The notes beneath the pieces were generated by a model, which was given only the letters and a program-made list of their open reading frames with translations, was not told the DNA's origin and did no database searches. A program made the position numbers and the translations under genes. Positions 39 to 54,600 of a stretch of 64,000 nucleotides of DNA are shown in pieces. Location of the stretch: contig FN649729.1 of assembly GCA_000310025.1 (NCBI GenBank), positions 1,962,436-2,026,435 on the forward strand, in the 5' to 3' direction. Position 1 is the first letter of the stretch; every line of letters begins with the position of its first letter. This stretch comes from Ectocarpus siliculosus. Its lineage: Eukaryota; Sar; Phaeophyceae; Ectocarpales; Ectocarpaceae.

Positions 39-3000
39 ATGTCGGCTCTGTCCTTTCGTAGTGCAGCCTCTGCTACATCGACGGCAGGAAGAAAGCTCCG
101 CAGCAGCAGGCACAGCAGCATTCGTCCTCTTTCGAGCAAAGGTGTTTCTTACAATGATATGGTGAACGGCAACCCCCTCGACCTGCCTAGACTGCCGATC
201 CCGAAGCTGGAAAACACAGTGTCGAGGTACTTGCAGGTGAGTGGACACGACGTGTGTGTGTATCTGCCCTCTGCTGCAAGGGTTGTTGCTGTTGCATTTG
301 CTAAGAAAGGAACAACCGTGTTTGCAAATGTGCAAGTTGCGTCTTCAACAGCACCAGGGGTACCCTCTGGTCAAATGGGGCGTTTTGGAGGATATGGACA
401 CATGTATCAATCAATGCGATGACATGGAGATGTTTGCGGCAACCGGGTAGTATCTGGGTGCCAGCAAAGTAGACCGAAGAGCTTAGACCGGCGGTGTTTT
501 CGTTATGCACCATCAGACCATCAGCGGCGTAATTTGTGCCTGTTCAATCTACTCCGGACTTGTAACTTGGGACCTTTACAACAGCAGTCCTACTACTTCT
601 GTAGGGTAGTCTTTTTTTTATTTGTCTTAAGGTGACAGAACGAATTCATCTCTATCATAGAAAAGAGTCAGAGACTTTCTGTAGTTGTATTTATTTTTCC
701 TAAAACAGCAGTCCTACGGTTGATCTATAGCAGTAGAAGTTTGACAGCTTGGAACTTGGAACATGCCGATGGATTTGGAACTTACAACACCAGACCGACG
801 CCAGACCAACTGGGGCACAACTTTTTAGAGCTCTTGAGCGCAGGTACCCGTTGCCAACGCTGGGGTCTGCTGTCTTGGTCCTGTGTACCTGTCGCAGTCA
901 CAGTACGCAGCGGTTGCTCATGCACCTCTTGCACACCCGCCCGATTCTCACACCCTGTAGTAGTTGAACGATACACGGATGCCCGTTCCCGATTAATTAA
1001 TCCTGAACTACTCAGAATCTTGCGCAGAGATCTTACCGTTGAAAAATGTTGTACGTACGGTGGTGCAGCAGGCCTTGCTGTTCGGTGCGTTCTTCCCACC
1101 GCCTCCTCATCAATTCGTGCCCTCGCTTGTTCCGTGCCCGCCGTTTGGGTGCGGTGCAGAGCTTGGAGCCCCTGACGAGGGACCGCCCCGAGGACCTCGC
1201 CCGAGCGCGGGCGAGTGCCGACCGGTTTCTGAAAGGGGATGGCCCTTTGCTGCACTCCATGGTGAGTGAGCGGGCGGGCAAGTTTCTGGATATTTTTTTT
1301 GTGTACAGTCGTGGTTCCGTTATAGACCTTTTGACGGATATCCTACGGGCTGAGGGCTCACGAGATTGCAGGAAATGCAATCCTGATGCTCTCGTGCGCC
1401 TAGGGCCCTTTTTTCGCGGTTTCTCCGCCCGTAGACCTCGCCTCGAAGCGAGACTTGCACCTACCGATAGCCCTGTGTTGCGAGGGCTCTCCCAGCGTCC
1501 CGCGCGCTCTCGGGGCGGACTGCGTGCAGCGCCAGCGAGGGCAGAAGTCGCGTCTCCGACATCTACCATGGATCCACCAATCACGCCCCGATTTCTTAAC
1601 AGTGGCTCCGATATATGAGGGTACCTTCTAAGAGGGGGCTCCGATATAGGAGACTCGAAATCGGTTGTCACGGACTCGACCCACCATAGTATAGCTGGGT
1701 ACCCTCTTAATACCCCAACAAGACGGGGCTCCGATATAAGAGGGTCGAGGGCCTTTGTCACACCACCCTCTTATATCAGGAGCGAGACTGTAATCTGCGC
1801 AGGAAGCCATCACCCACCTTATTAGACCCTTCTTGATGGAAACAGAATCTTGCAAATATGTCCTGGCAATTTTGACCCAAGATTTGCTTACAATATATCT
1901 CCGCCAAGATTGCAGTATCGCGATTTGTGGGGGGAAAATGTTGAATGTTGAAAATGCGGCGTGTTGTTCCTCTCTTCTGCTTGAAGTTGATAAAGGCACA
2001 ATGGCCACCTGGTCCACAGAAAATGCCAAGGTGTGGCGAAAAGTGGGCATGACGCAGTTGTAGAAGGGGCGTCCCCCCCCCAGCTGTATTGCCTCAACAC
2101 TATGGGTGGATACTTGCGATGGGCGCCTACCTGGGGTGCAAAATAGAAAGACATCACCCACCCTATAAGTGAGTCTGGCAGATTTATCTCTGCGTGATTT
2201 GCTGACGCCGTCCACACCATTCTAGATTTGGTATGTTGACAACGTGTCGTCTTCATACGTGTGTCGAAGCCTTGTTCTGCTTATTATTATAAGCCCACAC
2301 TTCGGCGAGGGTGAAGCGAGCGCGGTTGACCACTTGCACCAAAACTCTCTCTCTCACACACACTCTCATCCCCCCCCCCCTCTTTAAGATTTACATCAAC
2401 GATTTGATAAGGGCGGTTGAAGCAGTAAGACAAGGAGTCCAAGTAGGTGGAAAGAGTGTGTCCGGACTGATGTTTGCAGATGATTTCGTGGGGGTATCCG
2501 AAACACCAGAAGGGTTGCAAGAACAAATAGATGCGGCGGTAGGATACACCCGAAAATGGAGACTGTCGGCGAACGTAGGAAAATGCGCAGTAGTGGTCTG
2601 TAACGAAGACAAGAAAAATCCCGTAGAATTCAAATGGAAATGGGGGGAGGAAGAACTACCGGTAGTAGACAAGTATACGTACCTGGGAGTAGAGATTTCG
2701 AAGGAGTGCTCATGGGACGCACACATAGCGAAGTTGATTGGGAAGGGTAAAGCTCAGATAGGCAAGATGGACGAGATCCTTACGGACCCACACCTAGACA
2801 CTAGGATTAAGAGGTGTATTCTCTTGAATGTGATTGTACCTAAGCTAGAGTATGCAGGAGAGGTATGGGAAGGTAACGAAAAGGCCGTCAAGCAGCTGGA
2901 AACGGTGCAGATGGCAGCGGCCAAGAAAATGCTAGCATGTTCAAGTACAACGAGCAACACTGTATTGAGAGCAGAATTGGGAATGTACTCTCTTAAAACA

Positions 3001-6000
3001 AAGAGAGACATGCAGAAGTTGAATTGGCAGTACAAGGTAAGTAGAACGTCGGACGATAGACTACCAGCCATGGTTGACAACGCAGCTTGGGGAAAAGCGA
3101 CTCCAGGAAAGAAGGGAATCAGATGGGACAAGGTGGTAGAGAAGGTTTGGAAGGAGATAGGGGACGAGGAGGAGACGTTGGACACGGAAGGGTTCGGGGG
3201 GTTCAAGACGAAAGTCAAGGAGATGCTAGAGAGTAGGGAGGAGGCAACCCTTCGGAAGAAGGTACGAAGCGAAGACCACTTGGAGATATACGGGGAAGTT
3301 GAAAGAAGGGATAGGGATGAAGACGTACTTGGACGGCCCCATGGACAATGCGAAAAAGCTGAAATTGCAATTTCGAGTAGGCGATCTGGACTTGCCAGAA
3401 CGGAGGAAGAGGTATACCAGCCGTAGGAGAGAGGAAGAGGAGGATAGACACACATGTCCATGTGGCAAATCGGAGGAGAGTAGACCCCACATAGTTGGGG
3501 AGTGTGAGTTGTACAAGAAGGAAAGAGAGGATCTCGGAGGAGGAAATGAGACAGAGAGGGTGTGACATGGACAAGTTTGGTAAATTAAACAACAGCGAAA
3601 AAACGATCGCGATAATTGGGGATAGATGGTGGGCACAAGAGGCCCTAGAGGACGGGGATAAGATGTGCAAGAAATTTTTATGGAGTTTGTGGCAGAAACG
3701 TAAAGAGCTCCCAAATGTTGGTGGTGTCTCTAGTAGGAGCGCTCCGTCTCGAAAGGGACGCGTGGTCAATGGTCAAATGACTACGGCAAGCAACAAATGA
3801 GTACGCCCCCCCCCCCCCTGCAAGTGGCTCGTCCACTGACTCGAAATAGAGACTCTTCCGGTGACTCCGAACGCAACCAGAGAGCCAACCACAACGACTC
3901 CACAAACATGGAAGGCCCCCTCTTTCTCTTGCACACACAACATGTCTCTCGCACGAACAACGTGTCCCATCCACATGTGCATACCGCCGCGTCCACCATC
4001 TGCGTGCTGAACGATGAAGGTTGTGGAGAAGGATGCTGCCCAGAAGGGCTACCCCCACAGCTACATCGAGGGGCTCTGGGACGACATGTACCTGGAGGGG
4101 AGATGGAGCCTGCCGATCAACTCGAACCCCTACTTGGCCCTCAAGCCACCCCCCAAGGACTCTGCGGTGCCCCCGGGCTCCGACCCGCAGATCGTTGGAG
4201 CCGCTAGGTTCGTGGAAGGAAGTGCAAAAGATGGTCGTTTTGCTAGCGGTTCGTGCGAAAGTGTCTGCGATGCTGCACCAGCAGCACGGGTGTAGTACAT
4301 CGGCGGATTCAGTCTTCCAAGGGTCTGGACTAGAAATTTTTTCTTGTGATGCTGGAACTTGGTTGCGATACGCGGTCTTCGGGGGTTGTTCATTCGTTTG
4401 GCGACTACAGCAGCAGTAGCACGCACAGCTTGTCGTGTGATGCCTCCGGCCCCGCCAGTCAATAATGTGACACCTAACACCATTTTTTTTTTAAGCCTTC
4501 TGAACTTTCACCCCCTATCACCAACTGATCACCGCTTGCTTCAACACTCCCCGACCCCGACAGATTCATCTCGTCGTTGCTGAAGTGGAACCGGCGCGTG
4601 CGGGATGGAACGTTCCAGCCGGACGCCGCACGGCCCGGCTGCGTCCGCGGGTAAGCTTTGTCCTATTATAGCGCTAATTGTAGAAAATCACAGCATTTTA
4701 TTTTTGAGTGTACAAGGGCATGTGCGTCTGGCGTGCCCACCTGGGTTTTTTTTTTCGAGCAGGATCACGAACAATCTCGGTACGCCGTGCACCATCAGGT
4801 ACGCTCTGCAGGGCGGCGGGGCGAGGGTGGCCGAAAAGGGGCGGGATACGGTGCAGCACTACCCTGAGTCCCGCCACGCGGTGGTTTTCTGCAACAACCG
4901 CATCTTCAAGGTTGAGCTGCTTGGAGGGGAGGACGGCCAGTCGCAGGTGCGTCATGTGCAATAATTGAACGATCGAACAATTGTTTTTTTCGTGTATGTT
5001 TCGGGCATGACAACCAGAAGGGGGGGGGGGTTAGGTTACGCAGAATACAACCCCGGACGGACCAACATACGCCTCCCTATGTCGGAAACCTTTTCCCGTT
5101 GCCGGACAGAGACCCGCCTGTCCAGCAGAGCACCCCTCCCCCCGCGCGCTACTCTGTACATTCTCGGATGTGGCAGAATCGCAAAGTCCACCGGAACGAA
5201 CGGTGCCGACGAGGTTGGTAGGAAAGGAACTCTGTGTCGAAAAAGAGGTGCTTGGAAATTGATCCGACGACCACGGGTATAGCAGTACTACTGGGCACCC
5301 CCGTCCCCTCCCTCCCTCCATCCCTCCCTCCTTCCTGCCCGTCTCCCGCACACCGACCGACGTGCGCGTAGATAAGCGAAGACGACCTCAGCAAGCATCT
5401 CGACGAGATCCGGAGCTCGGCCTTCTCGGAGCCCTACGGGCCCTCCCCCGGCAACTCGTTCGTGGGGCACCTGCTCACCTCCAAGGGGCGGGACGAGTGC
5501 GCCGCTGCCAGGGAGGCCCTGAAGGGATTCTCCCCGACCAACGGTGCCACGTTGTCGGAGGTTCGTGTGTGTGTGTGTTTATTGTTAGGGTCGACGGACG
5601 CTTTCCAGCCGACCAATGAGAAGTCGTCATCCTCAGTTTGTGCGGGTGATTTTTTGTTTTTCATCGACCACGCTATTGGCCGGCTGACCAATGAAAGTTC
5701 GTCCGTCTCATAGTGGGATAAAGAACATGAACGTGCCTTCAAGGGGGTCTGTGGGCGCAGGAGTTGGATGGCAGTGTTCTGCTTCTGAAGTACAAGGAGA
5801 AGACCCCATTCTACCAGCAGGCGGCATTGTGTGTGCGTCTGCCTGTCTTTTGTTTTGACATCGACCTCGCCGACCGGCTGACCAATGAAAAGACGCCAGT
5901 CTCAGCCCGACAACAGTGATGAACGCAGCGCCACACACAACAGAATTATTCTGAAGGTCATGATCTCGGACGCCGTGTATGGGTGTGTGCGGTTAGTTTT

Positions 6001-10796: not shown

Positions 10797-11714
10797 CCCC
10801 AGTACAAGAACCGCGTGCGTGCCTGCGCGCGTGGTTGCGGCGTTTGTGATTTTCCGAAAGTTCCTATCTTGTGGGAGTTTACGCAGCTGTGTAATGTCTC
10901 ACCCGCTAGACAGGAGTCCAACTGAGTCGTGCTGAGCTCAACTTTTTCAAATAGACCATAACTAAAGAGATGCCATAATTCATTGAGTGAAGAGTGGGAA
11001 TGGTGGGAATGACTTTAGTGAACGTATACTGGAGCCTACTCTACCACAGGGTAGACGCGTGTCAGAGACACTACAGGCGCCGCTCTTCACGTACCTGCTG
11101 TGTGGAGACACTTGCCATGCCCAATTCGACCAACAAACGCGACACAGTAATGGGAAACCATCGGCACGCACTCTATGCCAACGCGGCGGAATACATGATC
11201 TAAAACAACTGCCGTCCCCAAGGCTCAGCGTATCTCATTCCGGCCTCTTTGGATGCCCGGGTAGCTTGTGAACACCCAACTCCTTCGATCTTCACATGTC
11301 ACCCGTCTCCTTATCAACGATCCCCCGCCCCGGACAGTTCTAAAATAAACCAGCCAGTGGTCCTGGTCGTTTCTATCTGCACTACTACCGAGATCCCAAC
11401 CTATTGGCCGTGGTGGAAACTCATCAACAAGTAGTCGATGGCGTTTAAAAACATAACGAATTCGTACGGATAGAAAACGAGCCAGCTCGAAGGTAAACCG
11501 GCTCCGAATCCTTTTGGTATGAAAAGCCTTTAGGCGAAGCAAGGCTGTGTTTCGTCGTCGAAAATACCCTTGCAAAAGGCTTCATAAGCCAAGTGGTTGG
11601 CGATGGCTACGATACGTCGATTTGTGTCTCGCCCATCCCACACCATCTATCAAATCTAACGTCGACAGGAGGTGTATTATTTTCTGCGAGGAAAAATGAA
11701 GGCACAAGTTTTCT
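10797..11714. other. Convergent intergenic region between carnitine acyltransferase and HHL1-like genes
   Basis: This 918-bp stretch separates two 3' ends. No supported exon was found. It holds the 258-bp inverted-duplicate repeat (about 11359-11617). Its reading frames with AFHTKRIRSRFTFELARF belong to that repeat and not to a host gene. Confidence 0.6.
11359..11617 (-). repeat. Copy 1 of a 258-bp dispersed repeat (inverted relative to 54138-54395)
   Basis: The reverse complement matches 54138-54395 over nearly its whole length with scattered substitutions; shared blocks include the complement of gtagccatcgccaaccactt and of caccacggccaataggttgg. Both copies keep a partly open frame encoding KAFHTKRIRSRFTFELARFL, so the source may once have been coding. 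Confidence 0.8.
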
Positions 11715-19398: not shown

Positions 19399-22300
19399 AT
19401 GGGGTCTACGGCAGACTTCAAGAACGGGATGACCATCGACATTGACGGTGCGGTGGCGTATGTGTGCATTTATCGCTAGCTTCGACCGCACAAACCGGCC
19501 GACGAAATGTTTTGGTGTGTATCTCTTCTTTACCCTTGCGTGATGACAGGCGGATTAGGCTCCGTTCTCAGCTCCGGTCGCTTTGCGTGCCGAAAGATCG
19601 CCGTTGTGCCTCGGCTAAGAGCAAAAAACATACATAGAGACCATCAGGGAGACAGAGGCAGCACGCCCCAACAGCACGCTTATCAGCAATGCGCACAGGA
19701 CTCACATTGTACATATTTTTCACCCATGCCTAATCTCTCTGACGTGGGGCAGATATCCTTTCCAGATCCAATCTACTGCCTACCGGTACTGTAAGATTCA
19801 AACGCAACACACCACCGGAGGGTACATACAGCACCCTGAACATGTGATCAACCCGGTGCCGTATCCGCGGGGGAGAGCAGAGAAAGCGCACACCGGAGCC
19901 GATGCTAACGTACTGCCTCGGTACTTGATGTTGTTGTGATTGCGGTGCGTGTGGTTCCCAGTATTGGGAGTGAAGGGTGGTTCGTCTGCTGTGTGCAAAT
20001 TTTCGCTCAAAGGCAAGGGTTTTCGGGACTCCAGCTCCGATCACAGCTCCGATCACAGCTCTCTATTTGTAGTACAGAATTTTATCACGATTTTTATGCA
20101 TTTTGTGCGATAGTGGATGATGGTCTCGATTCTCTGATGAGCGGGCCGTTTTTTTCGTCGATCTGGCGCTTCTGTGAGGCGGTTTCCCGCGAGCGTCTTC
20201 GCATCTAGCGCCGCTAGCATTTGCGCTTGCCGTATGCTCTGTCCAAGGATGAGGTGGAGAAGATGTGCCAACAGGTATTGCTTGCACAGGTACACCCTCT
20301 GTGCGGACGTTTGCTGTCGGAGACCGGCATGCACACCTGCTCAGAAACTACTGCTGCTGTACAGTCTATTTCTCTCCGCATAGCTGTTACTGCTGTACAG
20401 CAGTAGTACTACAAGCTGGGCCAGCCAAGAAGGTCATGTTTGTTCTTAGGCGTCTCACGCTGCCGTTTAAACGAGTTTAGGCTTGAAATTTGGCAGCTGC
20501 TCGTACAAGACAATAGGGAAACCGCAGGTACCAGAATTTTTCGAATCTGAGTTGATTTAGGTATTACACGATCAACTGACTGCGTAGTACCCGATACCTC
20601 TGGTACTGAAATCAGTATAAAAAAAGTTTTTCAGATCAAGCTGAAATTTGGTGTGCACGTACCTGAGAGTAGTGCGAGGGTGTCGATGGTAGTTACAGGG
20701 CTCAATTCATCTTCCATCACAAGTTATGGCCTCGTAAAGATTCATATACAAAAGACAAGATAGCTGAGGGAATATGAGGATATCGCGATTTACACCACGA
20801 TTTTTACGAGTTGGAATCTGAAGTTTTTGACTGTGGTCGGTATTAGTACAACCAAGACCTCGACTGGAAGCACCCTCTTTTTTTTTTGTCCACCTATATA
20901 CTAAAAAAGGATCACCATTTGTCCTTTAACAGGGCTACCTCGTGAAGAAAAGAAAAGAAAAGAAGGGTGCTCCAGTCAAGGTCTTGGTTGTACTAATACC
21001 GACCACATATCAAAATTTCAGGTTCTAATTCGTAGAAATCGTGGTGTAAATCGTTTCCAACCATTTTGCATGCAATTTGGCTGGCCCGGCTTGTACTGTA
21101 CTCCTGTTCGTTACCCTTACATATACCGCGTCCCCATCCCTGTGAGCCCCACACATGGACCCACTGCTGTACCATTCTTGCCGCCGTGATTTATGGGTGT
21201 ACACGCATGCTTGGAAGATCTTTGACCGCAGAGAGCCAATTGTGGGGAAAAAACAAAAAAAAACAAATTAACCCAGTCACGCAAAGGGTTAAGCGTCGAC
21301 TGCGCTAACCGACTGACGAATGAAAAGACGTCAGTTCCAGTGCGGCTGAAAACAGAAATTATCTCTATTGTGTGTTTGATGATGTGGTATCTGGCTGGCT
21401 TGAAGGATGGTTCTGTTTGGTTTTTCTCTTCTCACGTGTTCTGCTGTGAGGTCGCTGTGGTCGTATGTGTTTGGGTTGATTTCTCGTGTGTTTGGGTCGC
21501 CGGGAGGTTTGAGTGCGTTCCGGCACACCGCTGCTGGCCTGCAAGCTTGTTGGCCAACAAGTTGGCGTTGTTTGGTCGTTCACGCTGGCGGCCTTTCATG
21601 GTCTTATGTAGAGCACGCCGCAGTATCGCACCCATGCGTCAGGCACTTTGACGTGCTCCCTGTACCACTGGTGCGTGCGTGTTGTGTGCCTCCCGCAAAT
21701 GGACAAAGGGCGCTGCTCCTACAAGCGCCTGGTCGTGGCTCGTTTGTGCGATGAGGAAAAATACGAAGATACAGAACATGGCATTGTGATCAAACATCTC
21801 GCTGTCTTCGTGCAACACACGTTGACGCGGCGCAGGAGCTGCTTGGTGGAATGACCGACCGTGCCCCACCCGAATAGGCAGTAGTAGATCACGGGATGTT
21901 TTGCGGGTGGCGTCCATTTGTATTGCGGCACGACGCGAATAGCGGGACAACTCCATGGCAGTAGCGTGGTTCAGACCAAGGATCCATGCCTATTTACTGG
22001 TGCTGCGACCACGAACGCCCCCGCCCACGCCTAGTTTCTCTCCGAGCTTCGCGTCTTTGGCTTTGGGGGTGTGTGCGAAACCGCGACACTGGAACCACCA
22101 CAGTGGATAAGTGTCGGCAGTATTCTTTGTCCTTTTTTTTTTTTTTCCCTCTCAGTGGCTCGCAACCTTCGCCAGTGAAGGGCTGCCACAACCGCGTTGC
22201 TCCCGTCGACGCGATGGCTTTGCTCGTGACTCTCCCCACCCGATGTTGTCGTTGCCGCCCCGCTACCCAGGCAACCCTTGCAAGATTCTGGAGTTCTTGC

Positions 22301-31066: not shown

Positions 31067-31736
31067 GGTCCCGCCCAAGATCTGTGGCAAAAGCGTACCC
31101 TGCACGCCCTGAGAAATTTGAAATTTTCCTCTGCTATGCAGACGCTCGGAGGTTCCAACCAAACGTTTTTAGAACCCATTTTTTGCGGGGATTCCAAAAA
31201 TGGAACTTTTTTTTGCGGCAAAAAAAGTCTTCGTCGTCGATTGCGCGTTTTTCCTATTTCTCGCCGATTCTATGAAAACGGCCAACCCAGCGTAGCTCGT
31301 GCCCATCTAATTTGCCGCAGCCAAAAGTGTGTTCATTCGAAAGCTCTCGTTCATAGCTTTCACATGATATATAGTTTGCTGTGTGAATCGTCTGCATAGT
31401 GGAGATATTAATCAATTGTGCCTGGGCTGGGGGCCGGAAAAATACCACTGCTGTAGTCTCCTTATTCGACATGTTTTGGAGCTTGATTGCTGTGTTTGTT
31501 GTTGCAACATCAGGAAAGGAGGTGAAGCCGTAGACGGTAGCTTTTGCTCCTAGAGGTAGATGAAGGTTCTGTCGTTGACACTCTTATCTACGACCACGTA
31601 GAGATGCGAAGGTTGCTTGTTTATGCTGAGAGACGATCAGTAAGGCAGCAAGGGTCTGAGATAAAGTGGGGATTCAACCTCATCTCCGCAAGTCGTAAAT
31701 AGTACAACTACCCCAAAGCTGGCGAGATAAAGAGGT
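31067..31736. other. Spacer between the DDE transposase and the DIRS-like element
   Basis: This 670-bp stretch has no supported gene. It should contain the 5' end of the DDE transposon and ends at the left repeat (A1) of the retrotransposon. Confidence 0.5.
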
Positions 31737-31899
31737 CGGCAGAAATAAACCGTTGGCCAATCAGAAAGCAGGAAGCGGACGAGCGTGTTGATTCCTGTTT
31801 TCAGTATATACTCGCTTCGCCGTGTTTAACCGGGGGCGAGCGAGAGCACGTGTGTGTGCTTGTGGTGGCCAAGGGTTGTTTCTGCCGTGACGTTTCTTT
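31737..31899 (+). repeat. Split direct repeat A1 (left end)
   Basis: It starts cggcagaaataaaccgttgg and ends gccgtgacgtttcttt. It matches A2 with one single-base indel in a T run (near 31825) and includes a TATA-like piece (cagtatatactc, 31802-31813), a plausible element promoter. Confidence 0.95.
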
Positions 31900-31960
31900 A
31901 CGTTTCGAGCGAGAGCACGTGTGTTGTTTCTTTCGCTTTCCCTTCTGTCTCCGGGGCGAT

Positions 31961-33562
31961 ATGGATTCGAACCCGAATCTCGGAAAAGGGCCTGCCGACG
32001 GTATTCGTACGTCGGTGGATGCCTCCATCGACGGCGGCGGCGGCAGCGGGGGCGGCGGCGCCCCTCCCTCTGCCGCGGTGGCGGGCGCGGCTGCCGCCAT
32101 GGTGTTGGCAGCACAGCAGGACCCGTCGGGCCCGCCGCCGCCGCAACAGCAGCAGTCGCAGCCGCAACCGCAATGGCAGCAGCAACAGCAGCAGCAAACG
32201 CAGCAGCCGCAGCAACTTCAACGTCAGCAGCGGGACGCAACAGCTGAAGCCGTCGCCGCGGCGGTCAGCGCGGCTGAGGCACGGCTGGCCGACGGCATGG
32301 CTGGTTTATCCGTGGAGGGCCCCGGTGGGTCGTCCGCCGGGGCCGAGGGGGACAACCGGGGTGCCGGTGCGGCGTTGGAGGCGCCGGGTGGGTCGCAGCT
32401 GGTGCGGCTGCAGCAAGATAACGAGAATCTTGTCTCCAAAGTGTCCGCTTTGGAGCAATCGTTGCAACAGTTGTTGAACGACCGAGCTGGTGGGGCGGGT
32501 TCGCACGTGGTCGGCCCGCAGGATGCTGGTGGCGCGGCGGACGCCGCGGTGGCGGTCAGTGTGGGTCTCGGTGCCGCTGCCGCTCCGGGATCTGACGCTG
32601 ATCGCCGGCGTCGCTTCGCCAAAGCGGAATTCGAGAGCACGGCTTCCGCTTGGCGTGCGGGGCGTTTGATGTGGGTGCTGCGTGGCATGCGGGGACTTGA
32701 CGTTCCCAACAAAGAGACCCTGCAAACGATGCTGGGAGGGACTGTAACCGGCACCGACAAGACCCTGCAGCAGCTGCGCACCATGTCCGGACTCAACGTC
32801 CTCGACTTCTTTCCCGTGGGCAATTCGGGTGAGCTGTCGGTCCCGGACCATTTCGACTTGACGTGTGCGTCGATAGTTAGTGTGTTAAAATTTGGGCTCT
32901 CTGCCACCTCTGCGGACAACGCCGCAGCTCTGGCGCGCTTGCTGCCCATGGAACAGGCCATGCTGTCGGCGCGGGGTACGTTGCGCATGCAAGTCCTTCG
33001 GAACATGGGTGATTTCCAGGGAAGGGGGTCGCGGGGGACCTTCGCCGACCTCCCCAACGACGACTTTCGTGAATGGGCCAATGCGGTAATGTTGTGGATG
33101 TTACCGATGCAGAATTTGCCGGTGCCGCCGGCGTCGTTCGAGAGCTTTGGCCCCCCGCCGGTCCCTCGCTTCGACGGCATCCGCGGCTTCTCCATGTCCG
33201 GAGGCATTGCGCTCCGGATGTTCGGGACGGCGGGTGGTGGCGGTTCTGCTGGATCGAGTGGGGGTAAGCGGCGGCGGGGGGACTCCCGTTCCGGGGGCGG
33301 GGACTCCAAACGCCGGTCGAAAGTGTGTTTCGAATATCGCGACTCCCAAACGTGCAGGTGGGGCGACTCCTGCGTGTTTCGCCATGCGGCTGGGGGCGGC
33401 AAGGGTGGCGGTGGCGGCGGCGGCGGTGTTGGTGGCCGGGGTGGTCGTCCGCGCGGCGGTGGGGGCCGTGGTTCGGGGGGGGGGGGGGCCTCGGATGCCG
33501 CGGCCGATGGTGGAGGCGGCTCGTCGGCGCTGGTCGTTCGCCGGGGAGGGGGCCGCAACTGA
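31961..33562 (+). CDS. DIRS-like element ORF1, gag-like protein with CCCH zinc finger
   Basis: From the ATG at 31961 the protein is about 533 aa; the same frame is open into repeat A1. The N-terminal third is low-complexity, with Gly/Ala runs and a Gln-rich stretch, then a short leucine-zipper-like coiled coil (ENLVSKVSALEQSLQQLL). The middle contains an RFAKAEFESTASAW block and a mostly helical region with no motif I recognise. Near the C terminus a CCCH finger (CFEYRDSQTCRWGDSCVFRH, spacing C-x8-C-x5-C-x3-H) is followed by RGG-type Gly/Arg repeats. Both are nucleic-acid-binding features, consistent with a nucleocapsid role. The function is inferred from position and these motifs. Stop at 33560-33562. 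Confidence 0.85.
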   Translation: MDSNPNLGKGPADGIRTSVDASIDGGGGSGGGGAPPSAAVAGAAAAMVLAAQQDPSGPPPPQQQQSQPQPQWQQQQQQQTQQPQQLQRQQRDATAEAVAAAVSAAEARLADGMAGLSVEGPGGSSAGAEGDNRGAGAALEAPGGSQLVRLQQDNENLVSKVSALEQSLQQLLNDRAGGAGSHVVGPQDAGGAADAAVAVSVGLGAAAAPGSDADRRRRFAKAEFESTASAWRAGRLMWVLRGMRGLDVPNKETLQTMLGGTVTGTDKTLQQLRTMSGLNVLDFFPVGNSGELSVPDHFDLTCASIVSVLKFGLSATSADNAAALARLLPMEQAMLSARGTLRMQVLRNMGDFQGRGSRGTFADLPNDDFREWANAVMLWMLPMQNLPVPPASFESFGPPPVPRFDGIRGFSMSGGIALRMFGTAGGGGSAGSSGGKRRRGDSRSGGGDSKRRSKVCFEYRDSQTCRWGDSCVFRHAAGGGKGGGGGGGGVGGRGGRPRGGGGRGSGGGGASDAAADGGGGSSALVVRRGGGRN

Positions 33563-33721
33563 GGACACGGGCTCTGCCTTTCGGCGGGGCCAACTCCGGA
33601 CGTGTGTGGGAGCGTAGATCAGACAGCGAGGCCGGGTTCCCGCGCGCTTGGGGCCGCGGCGTTGGCGGCGGCGGGCGTGGGCGTCGATCGAGGGGCGTGT
33701 GTGCCCGGAGCTGTCTCTTCG

Positions 33722-35311
33722 ATGTTACCAGGTGACGTCTCGTTTAGGTCGGTTGCAGGTTCGCGTGAACTTGGCGTGTGGCGATATCGTGTGTCTGCTT
33801 TAGCGGCGGTGTGTTCACCCTCCGACATGGGTGTGGGTCTTCGTGAGGTGGCTTCCGCTGGTTCCGCCTTGCTTAGACAGTGTGGGGGGCGCATTGAAGT
33901 GCTCGTGGCGGCCGGTGGTGCCGGCTTCTTTGCGCCCCATGTTGATGTTGCGTCGGTTCGTGAATTTTTTGGAGTCGCGAAACGTTTTCCGCACATTGAC
34001 AACCTCCTCCGTGTGTTGTGTCCTGGCGCCCCCGTCGATGTGGCGCCGGGGGGGTGTCTCGACGCCGAATTAAAATACGGCAATCATTCCAGCATTTTAC
34101 CATACACTTCGCAGATTACTGACAAGATCGTTTCGGATGTTACGTTAGGTCGTGCTCTTGTCTTCGACGTGCAGTTCATCCGTGAAATTTTGGGTGTGCG
34201 TGTTTCCCCCCTTGGGGTGGTGGAAGATCCGAAATTCCGCATCATTCATGATCTCACATTCACAGCGGCTGGTGCGTCGTCTAGCGTTAATGCAGATACA
34301 GATTTTGATCGTGCCCCCGAGTGTCTGTTGGGACATGTGCTTTTCGATATCTTGTCGCGCGTATTGTTTTTGCGCCAATTGCACGGGCCACATCTCGAGA
34401 TTCTGTTATGTCGTATTGACGTACGTGAGGCTTTTCGTCAAGTGTTGGTCGACCCTTCGAGGGCATCGGTATTCGGATACACGATGGGGGGCGTGGTCGT
34501 TATTGACCTTCGTTGCCAGTTTGGCTGGCGTTCGAGCCCAGGTTTTTGGTCGCCGTTCGGTTCCGCTCTTGAGCATGCACACACCCACACTACTTTTCAG
34601 ACAGCTTCTGTTTTGCCTGCCGGCGTTGCGGCGGTTGATCATGTTCAGCTTGTTCCTCCCCAACACCTCCCCGTTTCGCTACCGCGTGATTGTGCCCAAA
34701 TTACTATGGAGGGCGGTTTCGCTGGTTCCGCGTTTTTCGTTCGATATTATGTGGATGACGGCGTGCTTGTCGAGGCGCGGTTTTTCAAGGATGGTCGTCG
34801 TTACTTACGTGCAGTGCAGTCGATCGCGTCGGACCATTTCCGCCTGCTGGGACACCGGGGGCCACACGATCCTCCGTTGCTGTCTGCAAAGAAGATCACC
34901 GATTTTTCTACACGTTTGGAGGTGTTGGGATGGATTTTGGACACGCAAACTCTCACAGTGACCATGCCTCTGCGAAAACAACAGAAATTACATCGTTTGT
35001 TGGGCGAGTGGCCGCGGTCGCGTCTGTGTGCGACCGCCCGCCAAGTCGCGGAATTGACCGGTTTTCTTCTTCACGTGTCTTTTGCCTTGCGTCCAGGCAA
35101 ATATTTCGTCGGCTGTCTGTTGGCTGATGTCGGCATGCCGCAATCCGACGTGTTTCCTTCGCGTGTTTCTAACCCCGCTCGGCGTGTCGTGTTGGGCCCC
35201 ATGTTTCACGATGATTTGGATTTTGGCGCTGGTTTGTGCAGCGCGGTCTGGCGTCGCGTGGCGGACAGTTGTGTGCACCGATGTACAATGTGGTGCTTCG
35301 CCCTCCGGTAA
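33722..35311 (+). CDS. DIRS-like element reverse transcriptase
   Basis: The frame is open from 33602; the first ATG is 33722. RT blocks in order are KFRIIHDLTF, the first catalytic Asp in CRIDVREAFRQVLVDP, FGWRSSPGFWSPFG, and the second catalytic block YYVDDGVLVEA (GTGGATGAC at 34751-34759), then LEVLGWILDT and a helical thumb/connection (TARQVAELTGFLLHVSFAL). The spacing and the SPGFW block fit DIRS-type RTs. The frame stops at 35311 just before RNase H, which lies in the next frame. The homologous reading switches frame at a T run near 35220-35224, so RT and RNase H are probably one protein interrupted by a 1-nt change, or joined by programmed frameshifting. Confidence 0.9.
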   Translation: MLPGDVSFRSVAGSRELGVWRYRVSALAAVCSPSDMGVGLREVASAGSALLRQCGGRIEVLVAAGGAGFFAPHVDVASVREFFGVAKRFPHIDNLLRVLCPGAPVDVAPGGCLDAELKYGNHSSILPYTSQITDKIVSDVTLGRALVFDVQFIREILGVRVSPLGVVEDPKFRIIHDLTFTAAGASSSVNADTDFDRAPECLLGHVLFDILSRVLFLRQLHGPHLEILLCRIDVREAFRQVLVDPSRASVFGYTMGGVVVIDLRCQFGWRSSPGFWSPFGSALEHAHTHTTFQTASVLPAGVAAVDHVQLVPPQHLPVSLPRDCAQITMEGGFAGSAFFVRYYVDDGVLVEARFFKDGRRYLRAVQSIASDHFRLLGHRGPHDPPLLSAKKITDFSTRLEVLGWILDTQTLTVTMPLRKQQKLHRLLGEWPRSRLCATARQVAELTGFLLHVSFALRPGKYFVGCLLADVGMPQSDVFPSRVSNPARRVVLGPMFHDDLDFGAGLCSAVWRRVADSCVHRCTMWCFALR

Positions 35312-35913
35312 TGGCCGTGTTTGCCGATGCGTCCAAAACAGCGTTCGGAGCATACTGTGTGCAAACTGGGTGTTATTTCCGGCGTGATTTGACGTGTGAC
35401 GAGCAGTCCCGTTTTGTGGGGTCTAGCAAGTCTGTATCCGCGTGTCCCGATGTCAGTATCAATGTTCTTGAGCTACTCGGCATGGTCGCGGCGGCGTGGG
35501 TGTTGATCGTGCAACAGCGTCACGCGCCGGTGTCGGCCGGTGACTGCATCCAGTTGCGAGGAGACAATGAAGCGAGTGTGGCATGGATTGAGCGGTGTCG
35601 CGGAGGCAAGGAGCCGCGGTCCGGCGCGCTCATGCGGATGCTGGGGGCGATTGAGGTGTCTAGCGGGTGGCTTTTTCAATCGTCCCATGTGCCTGGTGTG
35701 CTCAATTCGCTTGCCGATGGTATTTCTCGCTGGCCCGCCGCTGATGTGTACGACAACCTTTGTGCCGCTGCCCCCCATGTGCGATGGCAGGAAGTGGAGT
35801 TGAATCGAGCCGGGCAAGAGATGTGCTCTGCCGTGCTGGGGCCAGCCTCGTCCGCCAGTCACTTGCGCGAACGTCTGAACGAACTTACCTGGGCCTTTTT
35901 GGAGGCTGGGTGA
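35236..35913 (+). CDS. DIRS-like element RNase H domain
   Basis: This frame has the RNase H acidic residues in order: Asp in VFADASKTAFGAYC, Glu in NVLELLGMVAAAW, Asp in LRGDNEASVAW, and a late Asp in SLADGISRW. There is no ATG before 35281, which supports it being the C-terminal part of the RT polyprotein. RNase H removes the RNA strand during cDNA synthesis. The end overlaps the recombinase ORF by about 130 bp in another frame. Confidence 0.88.
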   Translation: MQRGLASRGGQLCAPMYNVVLRPPVMAVFADASKTAFGAYCVQTGCYFRRDLTCDEQSRFVGSSKSVSACPDVSINVLELLGMVAAAWVLIVQQRHAPVSAGDCIQLRGDNEASVAWIERCRGGKEPRSGALMRMLGAIEVSSGWLFQSSHVPGVLNSLADGISRWPAADVYDNLCAAAPHVRWQEVELNRAGQEMCSAVLGPASSASHLRERLNELTWAFLEAG

Positions 35914-36923
35914 AATATCGTGTGGCCGTTGTGTGTCGGCCGGTGTTTATTGCTGCTGAGACTGTTCCGCGTGATGTCGTTGCTCAATTGGTTGAGTACG
36001 TCGCGTATGGTTTTTCCGTTTTGGGCCTGCAAAACTCGACGATTGCTAGTCACCTTTCCGCTGTTAAGTTTTTCCATCGTGTGTCGGGTGAAGGGGAGCT
36101 TGATACGCAGCATCCGCTGATTCGTTGTGCTTTACGTGGAGCGGCGCGGGGGCATGCCGACGTGGGAACACAGCAGCGGTTGCGGCGGCCGGTGTCTTGG
36201 GCAATGTTGCAACAGGGGAGTTCGTTGGTGCCTCAATGGGGCGTAGGCGGGCGCGTTTTGTTTCTTGCGCTGAGTGCCTCTTTCTTCTTTCTGACGCGAG
36301 CGTCTGAGATGTTTGCGGTGTCGAAATTGTCCATGCATGAGGTTCATGGGTTGCGTCGGGGGGACGTAGCGTTTTTTCGGGGGGCGGTCCAGATATTGCA
36401 GTCGGCGCAGTGGCCGTTGGCCGATCGCGTGGAGGTACGTTTTCGTTCGTCCAAAGGGGACCAGTTTCGGAAAGGGGCGGTTTGCACGCGCACACGGCGA
36501 GGTCCGTGTCGTGGCGTAGACCGAGGGGGTGGTGCAGTGGATGTCATGGTGGAGCTGCTTTCTCTGTATACGTTTCTGCCTTCGCATGCGCCTCTCGTGG
36601 CTTTCGGCGTTGGTCGGGGCCAGTGGGCCATGTGGACTAAGTGTCAAGCTGTTGTGGCCCTTCGCCAAGTCGTTGCGTTGGCGGGTTTGCAGCCCGAGGA
36701 GTACGCGCTGCACTCCCTTCGTATTGGGGGCGCCACTTTCTTGGCGGCGGGGGGTGCATCGCCGGAGGTTCTTCGTAGAGAAGGGCGATGGTCGGGTGAG
36801 AGTAGTTACCAGTGTTATGTTCGGAATGTTGGGGGTGATGCTTCGTGGGTGTCAGAGGTGTTGGCGAACAAGGAGAAGGTGACTACGCAGCCAGGGCAGG
36901 GTACCCGATGGGGTGACGTGTGA
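35784..36923 (+). CDS. DIRS-like element tyrosine recombinase
   Basis: The first ATG in frame is 35784; the protein is about 379 aa. An N-terminal SAM-like core-binding region (RTSERTYLGLFGGWVKY, then NSTIASHLSAVKFFHRV) precedes the catalytic domain. Catalytic residues are visible: Arg in FFLTRASEM, the His-x-x-Arg pair in LHSLRIGGATF, a Trp in GRWSGES replacing the later His as in many members, and the nucleophilic Tyr in YQCYVRN. It would integrate a circular cDNA without making target duplications. The frame is intact from start to stop and overlaps the RNase H frame. Confidence 0.9.
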   Translation: MAGSGVESSRARDVLCRAGASLVRQSLARTSERTYLGLFGGWVKYRVAVVCRPVFIAAETVPRDVVAQLVEYVAYGFSVLGLQNSTIASHLSAVKFFHRVSGEGELDTQHPLIRCALRGAARGHADVGTQQRLRRPVSWAMLQQGSSLVPQWGVGGRVLFLALSASFFFLTRASEMFAVSKLSMHEVHGLRRGDVAFFRGAVQILQSAQWPLADRVEVRFRSSKGDQFRKGAVCTRTRRGPCRGVDRGGGAVDVMVELLSLYTFLPSHAPLVAFGVGRGQWAMWTKCQAVVALRQVVALAGLQPEEYALHSLRIGGATFLAAGGASPEVLRREGRWSGESSYQCYVRNVGGDASWVSEVLANKEKVTTQPGQGTRWGDV

Positions 36924-37120
36924 AGGGGTTATGTGGCGCGTGGTGTATGTCGAGGTCCTTGTTGTACCGATGTTATTTTGCTGTACATTGTGTATGCCGT
37001 ATATATTGTATGTCGTACATATGGTGTGTGTTGCATTCATATTCATGGTTTGCGGTATATGTTGCGCATAAAAAAAAGGGGGGGGGGGGGGATCAGTATG
37101 GCGCACCAGCCTTAGGTTTG

Positions 37121-37301
37121 GGGGCAGACAGAGTGTATATATTTCTGTCCGTTGGGTGGCTGATGTTTATACTGATCGTAAGGAGTAGACCGGGGGCGTG
37201 TGTGGTGTGTTGCCCTGCCTGGTCTCCGCTCTTTTCCCCTCCCCCTTGGCGAGCAAAGGGGGTACGCAAAATAATGACAAATTTCGAAAGCATCGAGAAA
37301 A
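37121..37301 (+). repeat. Split direct repeat B1
   Basis: 181 bp, beginning ggggcagacagagtgtatat and ending gcatcgagaaaa. It matches B2 essentially base for base, and lies about 200 bp after the recombinase stop. Confidence 0.95.
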
Positions 37302-37350
37302 GCGAAAGATTGACTGACGAAGTAAGGGAAATCTGTGTTTTGTGAGAAGC

Positions 37351-37512
37351 GGCAGAAATAAACCGTTGGCCAATCAGAAAGCAGGAAGCGGACGAGCGTG
37401 TTGATTCCTGTTTTCAGTATATACTCGCTTCGCCGTGTTTAACCGGGGGCGAGCGAGAGCACGTGTGTGTGCTTGTGGTGGCCAAGGGTTGTTTCTGCCG
37501 TGACGTTTCTTT
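37351..37512 (+). repeat. Split direct repeat A2
   Basis: 162 bp, identical to A1 apart from one T fewer in gtgttaacc near 37440. It is separated from B1 by 49 bp. Confidence 0.95.
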
Positions 37513-38090
37513 TTCCCACCCACCCACCCTTGCTTTTGGGGGTGTCAGTGGACATGGAAATCGGAGCGGCGGCGTTGTGTCCAATGTGATTGCCTGTCGG
37601 GGGGATTCACTGTGTAGCCGCAGTCGGGGTCGCGTGTGCCTATGCTGGGCGCGGTTCCGAGGTGCTCGTCCCATTTCAATTTTTTTCTGAGTGGGATGTG
37701 TGTGTATCGCATTTACTTCAGGCTATATATATGCAGGACGCATGTTGGTGTGTGTATCGGACCGTTGCATGGTTGGGGGCGTGCACTATTGGCTGCTGTG
37801 TGCGGCTGCGTTGGTGCTGCGCGCTTCCCCGTTGCGTGCGTTACGAGTCTGATTGATTGGTGGACACCCGTATATATTATATGATTAATTGTACGTGGGG
37901 TCCTGGCGACATGTATGTGTGTTTTTTTCTGCAGTGCGATGGAGTGTCAGGGGAACAGAGAGTAGCGAGAGACGGGAAAATGGTTTTTTCTTGGTGGCCC
38001 GAGTGTTTCGCCTAGTGGCGATGTTAATGTTGATGGGCCTTGTGGGGTTCTCTCGTGGTTTCAGTATGAACACATAGGTGTGGTTACCAG
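37513..38090. other. Non-coding 578-bp segment between repeats A2 and B2 of the DIRS-like element
   Basis: It begins with a pyrimidine-rich CCCACCCACCC run and has no convincing ORF. Alternating TG/TA tracts (tatatatgcagg, cgtatatattatatgatt) occur at about 37722-37737 and 37870-37886. It would be inside the element's terminal region, but no copy exists at the left end. Confidence 0.6.
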
Positions 38091-38271
38091 GGGGCAGACA
38101 GAGTGTATATATTTCTGTCCGTTGGGTGGCTGATGTTTATACTGATCGTAAGGAGTAGACCGGGGGCGTGTGTGGTGTGTTGCCCTGCCTGGTCTCCGCT
38201 CTTTTCCCCTCCCCCTTGGCGAGCAAAGGGGGTACGCAAAATAATGACAAATTTCGAAAGCATCGAGAAAA
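38091..38271 (+). repeat. Split direct repeat B2 (right end of the DIRS-like element)
   Basis: 181 bp matching B1. The sequence diverges from B1 right after gcatcgagaaaa, which marks the element boundary. The next 177 bp lead to the SMU1 start codon. Confidence 0.93.
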
Positions 38272-38448
38272 AGGTTCTCCAAGGAAATGGGTGGGGGCTC
38301 CGCGGAAAGGGGGTTCGCCAACACCATGTGGGACACCGCGCACGCTGTGCACTGCTGTGCACCGTAGCAGCTACGCTAGCTGCGGCCGTGACACACACTG
38401 CTATTGCTGTAGGCTTTGCTCAGCTCTGCTGTCCATCCATCGACGACA

Positions 38449-51618: not shown

Positions 51619-54600
51619 TCATCCTTCATCGACAATCGTGTCTCCTCCACCCTCCTCCAACCCGCCGCCGATTTGGTTGACACCACTATCATACTCTCCT
51701 CCCTCCCCGTCTCCCTCGGGCTGCGCCGCGGCTCCGCCTTCCTCTTCCTCCTCTGATGCTTCTGCGTCGAAGTCGTGCTGGTACGGTATACCGTACCAGA
51801 TAGCGGAACGAATAGGCGGGGTTTAGGGGTGAAAAGAGCAAGACGGCGGAACGGCCAAGGCTGCTGGTGCTTCTGCCGCTTCTGCTGGTGCTTCTGCCGT
51901 CGCCTCGGTGATGGTGGCAATACAACACCTCAGGCCTCAAGCAAGCGTCCCGGTACTATTCGCCTGAATCGAACTGTCCGCTACTGCCCGTTGTAAAGTT
52001 AAGGGGTGCATGCACTACCGAGTGCCCTGAGCAACAGGTGCGACGAGTCATTCAACCGCGACACGATACCTACACTAACAACCCAAAGAATCTGTAACCC
52101 CACGAGCATGTGTGCGGCGATATCTTCGTTCCCTGGCACCGTGGGGGAGTAAAACCGTCGTACACAGCGGCCGTTCCTTACCCGCATGTAGATGTCGAGC
52201 GGGTTGTCCGTGATGTCTCCTCGCAGCGCCTCTCCAAGCTCGTAATCCTCCATGTCGTCGCCGAAAATCTGTCTCCCCACCCAATCAAACAGACAAGGGA
52301 GGACGGGCGCACGCGGAACAACAGCAGCAGCAACGGTTCGGAACGAAGTCGGACAACGTGTGTGCCGCACAGTGGCGTCATCCGTCGACAAGGCTATAGA
52401 CTATCTTCAAGGGAAAAGACACTGAGGTGAACGTGACGAACACCAGCAACAGGGGCAGTGCCGACAACAATAATAGCCACAAGCAGAAGCAGCTGCGGCA
52501 GCAGCATGAGATGGCAGCAGCAGAGGCAGCAGCAGCAGCAGCAGCAGCAGCAAGACCACCACCACCACCACCACCACCACCACCACCACCACCTACACCA
52601 ACACCGACACCAACACCAACAACCCCAACAACAGCAAACAAAAAAAAACGCACGGAGAAAAAGGACGGCGTCTCCTCGTGCAGCGCCGGGTCAAGGTTCC
52701 AGAGCAGGCAGGACTGCAGATCCCTGGATTCGTCTGTATCCTTCCAGTTCACCACCGAAAACGACGCCTGGGATTATAGAGAGAGACAGAGAGCGAGAGG
52801 GAGGGTTGTGTAAATTGGGATACACCACGATTCCCAAAGTGCGCGAAACCCCGCAACACTTCGATGAAAGCACGCACATGGGATTGAAATGTCTGCTTTT
52901 CACCTGTAGGTGGCACTGTTGCCCGACATGCTTCAAACTCTAGCACCTCAGGAATGGGCACGCCTACTGCTGTCATCGACGGGCTGCTAACGTTGGCGAA
53001 TCGTTAATCAAGTGTGCGTCTGTGGGCAGGACATAGAAAACAGTGCCGCCCTCTCCGGAGCTACGCATCTCCGCCTTGCCTCACGTTGTCCAGTCCGGCA
53101 CGACTGCGAGCAAAAAATGAACGCATGACTCACACGTGCAAGGCGTTCGTTACGGCAAGCGTTACGTCATGACCCGTGGGACCATGCGGGCAGGTAGAGC
53201 CAACGTCGGAAAACACGAGACCCAGAGAGCACCGGGGAGGGAGATAAATACAATCGCGGGGGAGGTGAGGTGCGATGTACACGACGGACACAAAGCTCGG
53301 CCCCGGCCCCGTCAGCAACGACCGACCGCACTACATATTTTTCACATCCTCGCAGAATTGGGCTGTTGCCGTGGCGCTAACGCGTTGATGCAGTCCCCAC
53401 CTTCTCGTCAGCGGGCTCCCATTCTCGCCAGAGCTCCGAGTTAGAGAAGAACGGATTTTCTCGAAAAGTCTGCGTGCGTCGGACGCAGGATCGACCATCA
53501 GCGAATGAAGGTGGAGGGCGGGGTACATGGGTTTGTCAAGGAGACAGCGCGTCTGCGATTGAGATACGGGAATGATGAGGCCACCGACGAGGGTGTGCAT
53601 CGGGGTACGGTCCAACTGGTGGCAATACCATTGATTGGACCGCGTCCGGAGCCACCACCGGGTGGCATGTTAACTTTCCTCAAGGACAGACAGACGGACA
53701 GACACACAAACACACACACGCGCGCGCGCGCGCAAAAACCGGTGCATCGACCTTCCTGCACAACAGGATGATTCGCGTGATAATAAAGACGTTACGCGAA
53801 TGCCACATGCCTATTGCAGTGGAAGATTATTCCCCTCTTACGATAGGCACTGGTAAGGGGAAAAGGGCTCTACAAGATGGATTTGGTGATCCCCCGAGGA
53901 TTACATGCAGGAGATAAAGAAGAGGAACTCTGCACCAAGTCCATTCTTATAGACGTAACAATCGTCACCCATCCGCAAGTCCAAGCATCGACAAGCCGAT
54001 CCAAAAGCCAGGACCCGCCCTCGAAGATCGAGCCGCAATTAAGGCAAATCATTATGCGGGAACTTTCAACCCGTCTAGATCTACCCTCCATACTGCTGTT
54101 TCTTCAACGAATGGTGGTCTTGGCAGAGGCACAGATCGACTTATCGTAGCCATCGCCAACCACTTGGCATATGAAGACTTTTGCAAGGGTAATTTCGACG
54201 ACGAAACAGCCTTGCTTCGCCCAAAGGCCTTTCATACCAAAAGGATTCGGAGTCGGTTTACCTTCGAGCTCGCTCGTTTTCTATCCGTACGAACTCGTGA
54301 TGTTTTCAAACGTCATGGGCTACTTCTTGATCAGTTCCCACCACGGCCAATAGGTTGGGATCTCGATAGTAGTGCACATAGAAACGACCAGGATGGCAAT
54401 GAGGGGGATTCCTTTGGCAGCGATGAAGGAGGAGGAGAGGGAACGGGAGGAGGACAAGACAGAGACCAAAGAAGCAGTCGAGGAGGGAATAATGGCGTGG
54501 AAGAGAGCAAGAGCTTCGAGCCAGGTGACCTTCCCCACCACAAACGATGCAGGGCTAGAGGCGATAGGGTTGGGTTGGGGTGAAGGAGGATGACGGTGAA

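Follow-up and report, generated by a model that had tools for sequence, protein, structure and literature searches.

The window analysed here, a 64,000-nucleotide stretch of an Ectocarpus siliculosus contig, holds a genuine tyrosine-recombinase retrotransposon with split direct repeats, a conclusion that our data support for this algal genome, and we are confident that the element is best explained as a recently inserted member of a family of Ngaro-type tyrosine-recombinase retrotransposons. An earlier note on this DNA had described all parts of a DIRS-order element following each other as A1, gag, RT, RNase H, tyrosine recombinase (YR), B1, A2 and B2, and we found the same order, with coordinates and repeats as described. 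The features, all on the + strand, are as follows.

31737-31899 (+): A1, the 5' terminal split repeat, 163 bp, identical to 37350-37512 and lacking the 48-bp S that precedes A1 elsewhere.
31961-33562 (+): gag-like ORF of 533 aa with a TGA stop at 33560-33562, called from the open frame and a third-codon-position bias against four other copies (p = 5e-6).
33326-33385 (+): CCCH-type zinc-finger-like motif near the gag C terminus (Pfam zf-CCCH_4, E = 0.011, under the curated cut-off; spacing read from the sequence).
33563-33591 (+): 7-nt spacer, then a 9-bp stem with a 4-nt loop (33570-33591), a candidate readthrough signal; the stem has 9/9 pairs in 7/7 window-family copies and 3/5 second-family copies.
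33563-35311 (+): RT open frame, in the frame of gag; first in-frame ATG 33722, motif A Asp 34418, YVDD 34748-34759; motifs conserved with the second family.
35215-35913 (+): RNase H frame, out of the RT frame in the window copy; D-E-D-D residues read from the sequence, Pfam PF05380 at E = 0.002, under the cut-off.
35745-36923 (+): YR frame, open, 392 aa, first ATG 35784; weak Cre match and BLASTP match to a PF00589-positive YR.
36297 (R), 36711 (H), 36720 (R), 36789 (W) and 36816 (Y) (+): putative catalytic residues of YR, with an HxxR..W..Y core.
37120-37301 (+): B1, 182 bp, identical to 38090-38271.
37302-37349 (+): S, the opening 48 bp of the full A repeat, retained in the window copy at this internal position only; S-A without a preceding B occurs at no fewer than 23 places.
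37350-37512 (+): A2, 163 bp, identical to A1.
37513-38089 (+): segment of 577 bp between A2 and B2, found in many other copies.
38090-38271 (+): B2, the 3' terminus, ending ...GCATCGAGAAAA; identical to B1, with ends common to other copies.
31733-31736 and again 38272-38275 (+): AGGT flank, by direct reading of the sequence.

Of all direct repeats that the repeat finder returned for the 64-kb window, the A and B pairs are the longest two. Compared within the window, the B copies are identical at 182/182 positions, as had been noted before, and the A copies at 163/163, so that the single-base difference attributed to the A pair does not exist; the identical repeats bear out the proposal of a recent insertion. 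Using A1 with the start of gag as the query, we obtained at least 49 genome matches (40 of 165 candidates scored), and B gave at least 40 (40 of 58 candidates scored). The B matches, the S-A and B-S-A joints and the shared ends elsewhere in the genome contradict the possibility, raised in the earlier note, that no other copy has the same termini.

The coding parts were called from motifs and from sequence comparison. The YR core weakly matched Cre in the PDB, with E = 0.033 when the whole sequence is scored and 1.5 when only the HxxR..W..Y stretch is, and pairwise BLASTP linked YR at 1e-7 to another YR encoded in this genome, at C76, which scores above the PF00589 cut-off. This second recombinase (L080, C76:55488-55793, minus strand) is the only Phage_integrase (PF00589) match among the matches listed for the genome (47 candidates scored), and it has diverged from the window's YR. 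The RT is a motif call: IDV.E.FRQ, FGWRSSPGFW and YYVDDG are common to a second family at C186, with 70% amino acid identity. Pfam RVT_1 did not score the window RT, nor did PF00589 score the window YR; the PDB sequence search returned nothing relevant for RT and RNase H, no relatives of YR and RT were confirmed in IMG/VR and none of RT among INPHARED phages, and NCBIfam and PHROGs gave no matches to window proteins. The element's proteins had no integrase-like Pfam match, YR being present in place of a DDE integrase. Two AlphaFold models, with mean pLDDT of 36.4 and 31.5, were unusable, and no fold search was made from them. We also counted distinct variants relative to the window copy at codon positions 1/2/3, which gave 13/27/51 for gag (4 copies, p=5e-6), 30/25/49 for YR (13 copies, p=0.01), 12/8/20 for RT (4 copies, p=0.06) and 4/7/8 for RNase H (5 copies, p=0.5). 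The third-codon-position bias indicates that gag and YR evolved under protein constraint; for RT and RNase H the count does not show it.

To place the true ends of the element, we relied on segment S (37302-37349, 48 bp), which lies between B1 and A2 in the window and precedes A1 in other copies as part of the A repeat. Among 43 matches to a B1-S-A2 query (40 of 94 candidates scored), the B-S-A joint occurs at at least 17 places and S-A without a B in front at at least 23. In the fetched loci, 20 distinct left ends, chosen because their S match begins at base 1 or 2, all start with GCGAAAG, and the right ends read GAGAAAA in 19/20 and GAGACAA in one (C12). The joints and the common left ends imply that the full A repeat is 211 bp and that B1 directly abuts A2, which gives the family the layout S-A1 / gag / RT-RNase H / YR / B1-S-A2 / 577 bp / B2. 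This arrangement also bears on whether the window holds two adjacent elements (A1...B1 and A2...B2) instead of one, a reading that might be entertained since B1 is a block distinct from A2 and the short forms S-A-577-B and S-A-B occur alone. We rejected it as extremely improbable, because independent adjacent insertions would not repeat the same B1-S-A2 joint at so many places.

We then examined integration by joining in silico the flanks of eleven insertions with both flanks, and of the window copy, and comparing them with the loci and the window. For C12, C30a and C33b, paralogous empty sites run gap-free through the junction (93-98% over 119-195 bases, with only ~20 bases on the left side for C12 and C30a), and the insertions caused neither duplication nor loss of target bases. 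C111 also has a spanning match, but within a GA repeat; beside the junction, its filled site carries an extra AGAG that the empty site lacks, and this excess of four bases could be a repeat-length change or a 4-bp duplication. In the spanning match of C24-1877, a gap of 12 bases falls at the junction. We discounted the matches that C4-2041 and C111 gave to their own loci, and the remaining insertions had no spanning matches. In the left flanks, base -2 is A in 19/20, against an A frequency of 0.234 in the loci (binomial 1.6e-11), and -3 and -4 are mostly A (12/20 and 13/20), whereas in the right flanks the top base count is at most 11/20 at each of ten positions. This pattern fits a circle joint GAGAAAA|GCGAAAG recombining with a target that ends in A followed by any base. 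Integration looks recombinase-made, and the element appears to insert as a DNA circle. DIRS1-like elements are described as having a 3-bp circular junction, often AAN, with no target duplication, in the part of PMC3266345 drawn on here, and the window family resembles them in its AAN-type junction and the lack of target duplication. No inverted-repeat recombinase site was found at the B|S joint. A common target repeat or hot target family was dropped after an all-vs-all flank comparison returned scattered shared repeats only. Under the mechanism that we propose, transcription would start inside A1 and end inside B2, the internal B1-S-A2 block would let reverse transcription restore the missing ends, the circle would be closed at the B|S joint via this block, and a short, A-rich site would serve as the target with which YR recombines the joint.

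The window copy itself lacks the 5' S, and its left junction reads GATAAAG-AGGT-A1, with AGGT also directly 3' of B2. A later loss of S is the simplest reading, and it is favoured because GATAAAG followed by AGGTTCTCC matches the usual target pattern. The copy may instead have entered by another route, as linear DNA without S that made a 4-bp target duplication AGGT, which we consider unlikely. Such a route would account for AGGT standing exactly at both ends (31733-31736, 38272-38275) and for this copy being the sole left end in the fetched loci to start exactly at A; however, four given bases match by chance about 1 time in 256, and a later loss of S would leave AAAG|AGGTTCTCC in agreement with the ordinary target pattern. 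The short C111 element, which is flanked on each side by AGAG and whose filled site exceeds the empty paralogue by four bases, offers a possible parallel, yet it carries S and sits in a GA repeat, and C12, C30a and C33b show no duplication. CCAAT- and TATA-like motifs within A1 presumably place the RNA start well inside A1 and not at 31737, which also speaks against a linear molecule beginning there. We therefore keep to the later loss of S. The empty site of the window copy was not found in the genome, its right flank being unique at the search sensitivity; in the left flank, the repeat present stops short of the junction, so no empty site was found there either. Just upstream of the element, 31515-31686 is an interspersed repeat of ~170 bp that is 82-86% alike at at least 39 other places, with common ends; it is SINE-like in size.

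By structure, the element appears to be Ngaro-type, with split direct repeats, internal repeats after YR and no room for a methyltransferase, which narrows the earlier 'PAT/Ngaro-type' label to its second half. The Ngaro-like series A1 ... B1 A2 B2 is present, the window copy lacking 48 bp of A1; the RNase H and YR frames overlap, and the internal repeats lie downstream of YR, the gap from the YR end at 36923 to the B1 start at 37120 being only 196 bp. The methyltransferase domain of PAT-like elements was not found in the coding part: Pfam gave no match, although it also misses RT and YR here, and a diverged domain could lie within gag. Of a Pat1-like gag zinc finger there is a CCCH-like match (E=0.011, under the cut-off). 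Inverted terminal repeats of the DIRS1 kind are absent, the ends being direct repeats and the sole inverted pair of at least 20 nt in the region measuring 29 nt at 79%. The element also differs from an LTR retrotransposon in its split repeats and in its empty sites, of which three are gap-free, one is ambiguous and one is gapped. Part of PMC4157794 sets out a scheme of Ngaro, PAT and DIRS features, cautions that structure alone misleads and reports a lineage, derived from Pat1, that lacks methyltransferase. Pat1 elements too have split direct repeats and a zinc-finger-like motif in gag, so that a PAT-like element that has lost its methyltransferase domain, which would work in the same way and belong to another clade, has to be weighed; the lack of room between RNase H, YR and B1 counters a kept domain, not a lost one. 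We regard such an origin as quite improbable and retain the Ngaro-type assignment.

Comparison with published systems changes one claim of the earlier note, namely that elements of this kind are sparsely described in such hosts: the portion of PMC12477816 available to us reports 15 Ngaro and 5 PAT-like families in Ectocarpus, and the corresponding portion of PMC8547959 describes four Ngaro types in Cafeteria, also a stramenopile. The Ectocarpus Ngaro families resemble the window family in belonging to the DIRS order and in residing, with numerous intact copies, in the genome of a photosynthetic stramenopile, a likeness drawn from their description only (PMC12477816, in part). According to the same excerpt of PMC8547959, Ngaro types 1-4 of Cafeteria burkhardae have the layout A1-[ORFs]-B1A2B2 with gag/RT-RH/YR, a size of ~6 kb and solo AB repeats, which the short S-A-577-B and S-A-B elements resemble. 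The window family differs from them, as far as that excerpt goes, in having 577 bp between A2 and B2, and its RT and YR are not recognised by Pfam models, whereas those of Cafeteria burkhardae are. DIRS1-like elements differ in their inverted terminal repeats and methyltransferase, as given in part of PMC3266345. With exact termini, with empty sites and with a target preference that can be measured, the algal Ngaro-type family is now well bounded, and its 5' end has been corrected.

Gag and pol lie in the same frame and are split by a single stop, TGA in the window family and TAG in the second family. All seven window-family copies that keep the gag-stop stretch (C4 window, C12, C30, C33a, C50, C63 and C9b) have TGA, GGACACG, a stem with 9/9 pairs and a 4-nt loop, and in 7/7 the shared frame is open over the 30 codons that lead up to the stop and the 60 that follow it. 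In the second family, represented by five copies 96-98% alike, the stop TAG is followed by GGGTGCG, and the stem has 9/9 pairs in C186, C178 and C13 and 8/9 in C25, while in C24 a 4-nt insertion displaces the stem and shifts the frame. The two families share the 7-nt spacer and the 9-bp stem; their loops differ, and one pair that is U-G in one family is C-G in the other. Third codon positions agree between the families in 9/11 first codons after the stop, against 18/42 of the others upstream of codon 54 (p=0.01). Shuffling produced a 9-bp stem that begins 5-9 nt past a stop in 0.9-1.4% of cases, and such stems follow 20/1737 and 4/1726 stop triplets on the window's two strands. As the two families are homologous, their stems are not independent events. 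Taken as a whole, the 121-nt fold that begins at the gag stop is unexceptional (z -1.82 and -0.83); the case for readthrough rests on the matching stem.

From these sequence features, we tentatively propose that the stop and hairpin may let ribosomes read through the gag stop into pol, and we treat them as a candidate signal that is possible and somewhat short of probable. The main alternative is reinitiation downstream of the gag stop. The first ATG after the stop is at codon 54 in 5/7 window-family copies and at codon 23 in C9b. C63 has no ATG within the 60 codons that follow the stop, which slightly raises the case for readthrough; in the second family it is at codon 29 in 4/5 copies, and the ATG position is not conserved. 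We also sought the gag stop of a third family at C34 and C1 and found no gag-RT junction in the stretches examined, one of which is partly masked. The MuLV gag-UAG-pol readthrough signal consists of an in-frame stop, an 8-nt spacer and a pseudoknot, as stated in part of PMC4178896, and the Tca2 gag-UGA-pol junction looks alike, but did not direct readthrough in yeast, according to part of PMC2194720. On these partial accounts, both are like the window family in combining an in-frame gag/pol stop, a short spacer (8 nt there, 7 here) and RNA structure; however, they are different kinds of element, and the window family is known with a stem only, the pseudoknot being that of MuLV. No report of readthrough of such a gag-pol stop in the DIRS order was found in the literature searched. 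The conserved stop and stem make readthrough in a tyrosine-recombinase retroelement a testable idea.

To the earlier description of the copy as 'nearly complete', two defects have to be added. The 48 bp of 5' S are lost, and RT and RNase H are in different frames, whereas in the C50 copy both lie in one 703-aa frame; given these two defects, the window copy is probably dead or non-autonomous. C50 has another break near the RT start and a single B repeat without A2. Single-base differences could instead be sequencing errors. Indels apart, substitutions leave the window copy 97.9-100% identical to C30a, C33a and C50 over the coding segments compared and about 98-100% over non-coding ones. The YR gene has 29 genome matches, of which 18, the window copy included, span the full gene at 94% or more, two are partial at 96-97% and nine, at 69-79%, are diverged relatives. 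Stops make up 5/104 distinct YR variants, so copies are decaying. With a query across the gag-RT junction, 7/17 matches begin only at window position 33606, and in the three such copies fetched (C16, C33b and C483) gag is joined to RT by a nearly identical internal deletion; a non-autonomous deletion subfamily seems to have spread. A tblastn search for an in-frame gag-pol fusion in the deletion copies gave no gag match.

Short elements of the forms S-A-577-B, S-A-B and S-A with part of B retain both termini. At L018/L059 (C4:3259-3260 kb), S-A abuts an oppositely oriented B-577-A-S block, forming a head-to-head chimera of the window family. L034 (C24:1134 kb) is an S-A-B-S-A tandem that lacks a coding part and whose B|S joint is exact; an integrated short circle dimer might leave such a structure.

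The host genome, 189 Mb in 492 contigs, has 87 PF00504 light-harvesting matches, which marks the host as photosynthetic, and contigs C92, C232 and C488 carry light-harvesting gene clusters of equal score in a tandem-like arrangement (at least 10 places in C92 alone). Elsewhere in the window, an ORF at 2293-3423 (+) has a near-threshold RVT_1 match (1.6e-6, 28.4 bits vs 29.6) and represents the remains of another retroelement. An inverted repeat pair of ~275 bp, 91-92% complementary, lies 42 kb apart at 11361-11635 and 54121-54393, and a 101-nt inverted repeat occupies 20786-20886 and 20953-21053, its arms 66 nt apart and 84% complementary.
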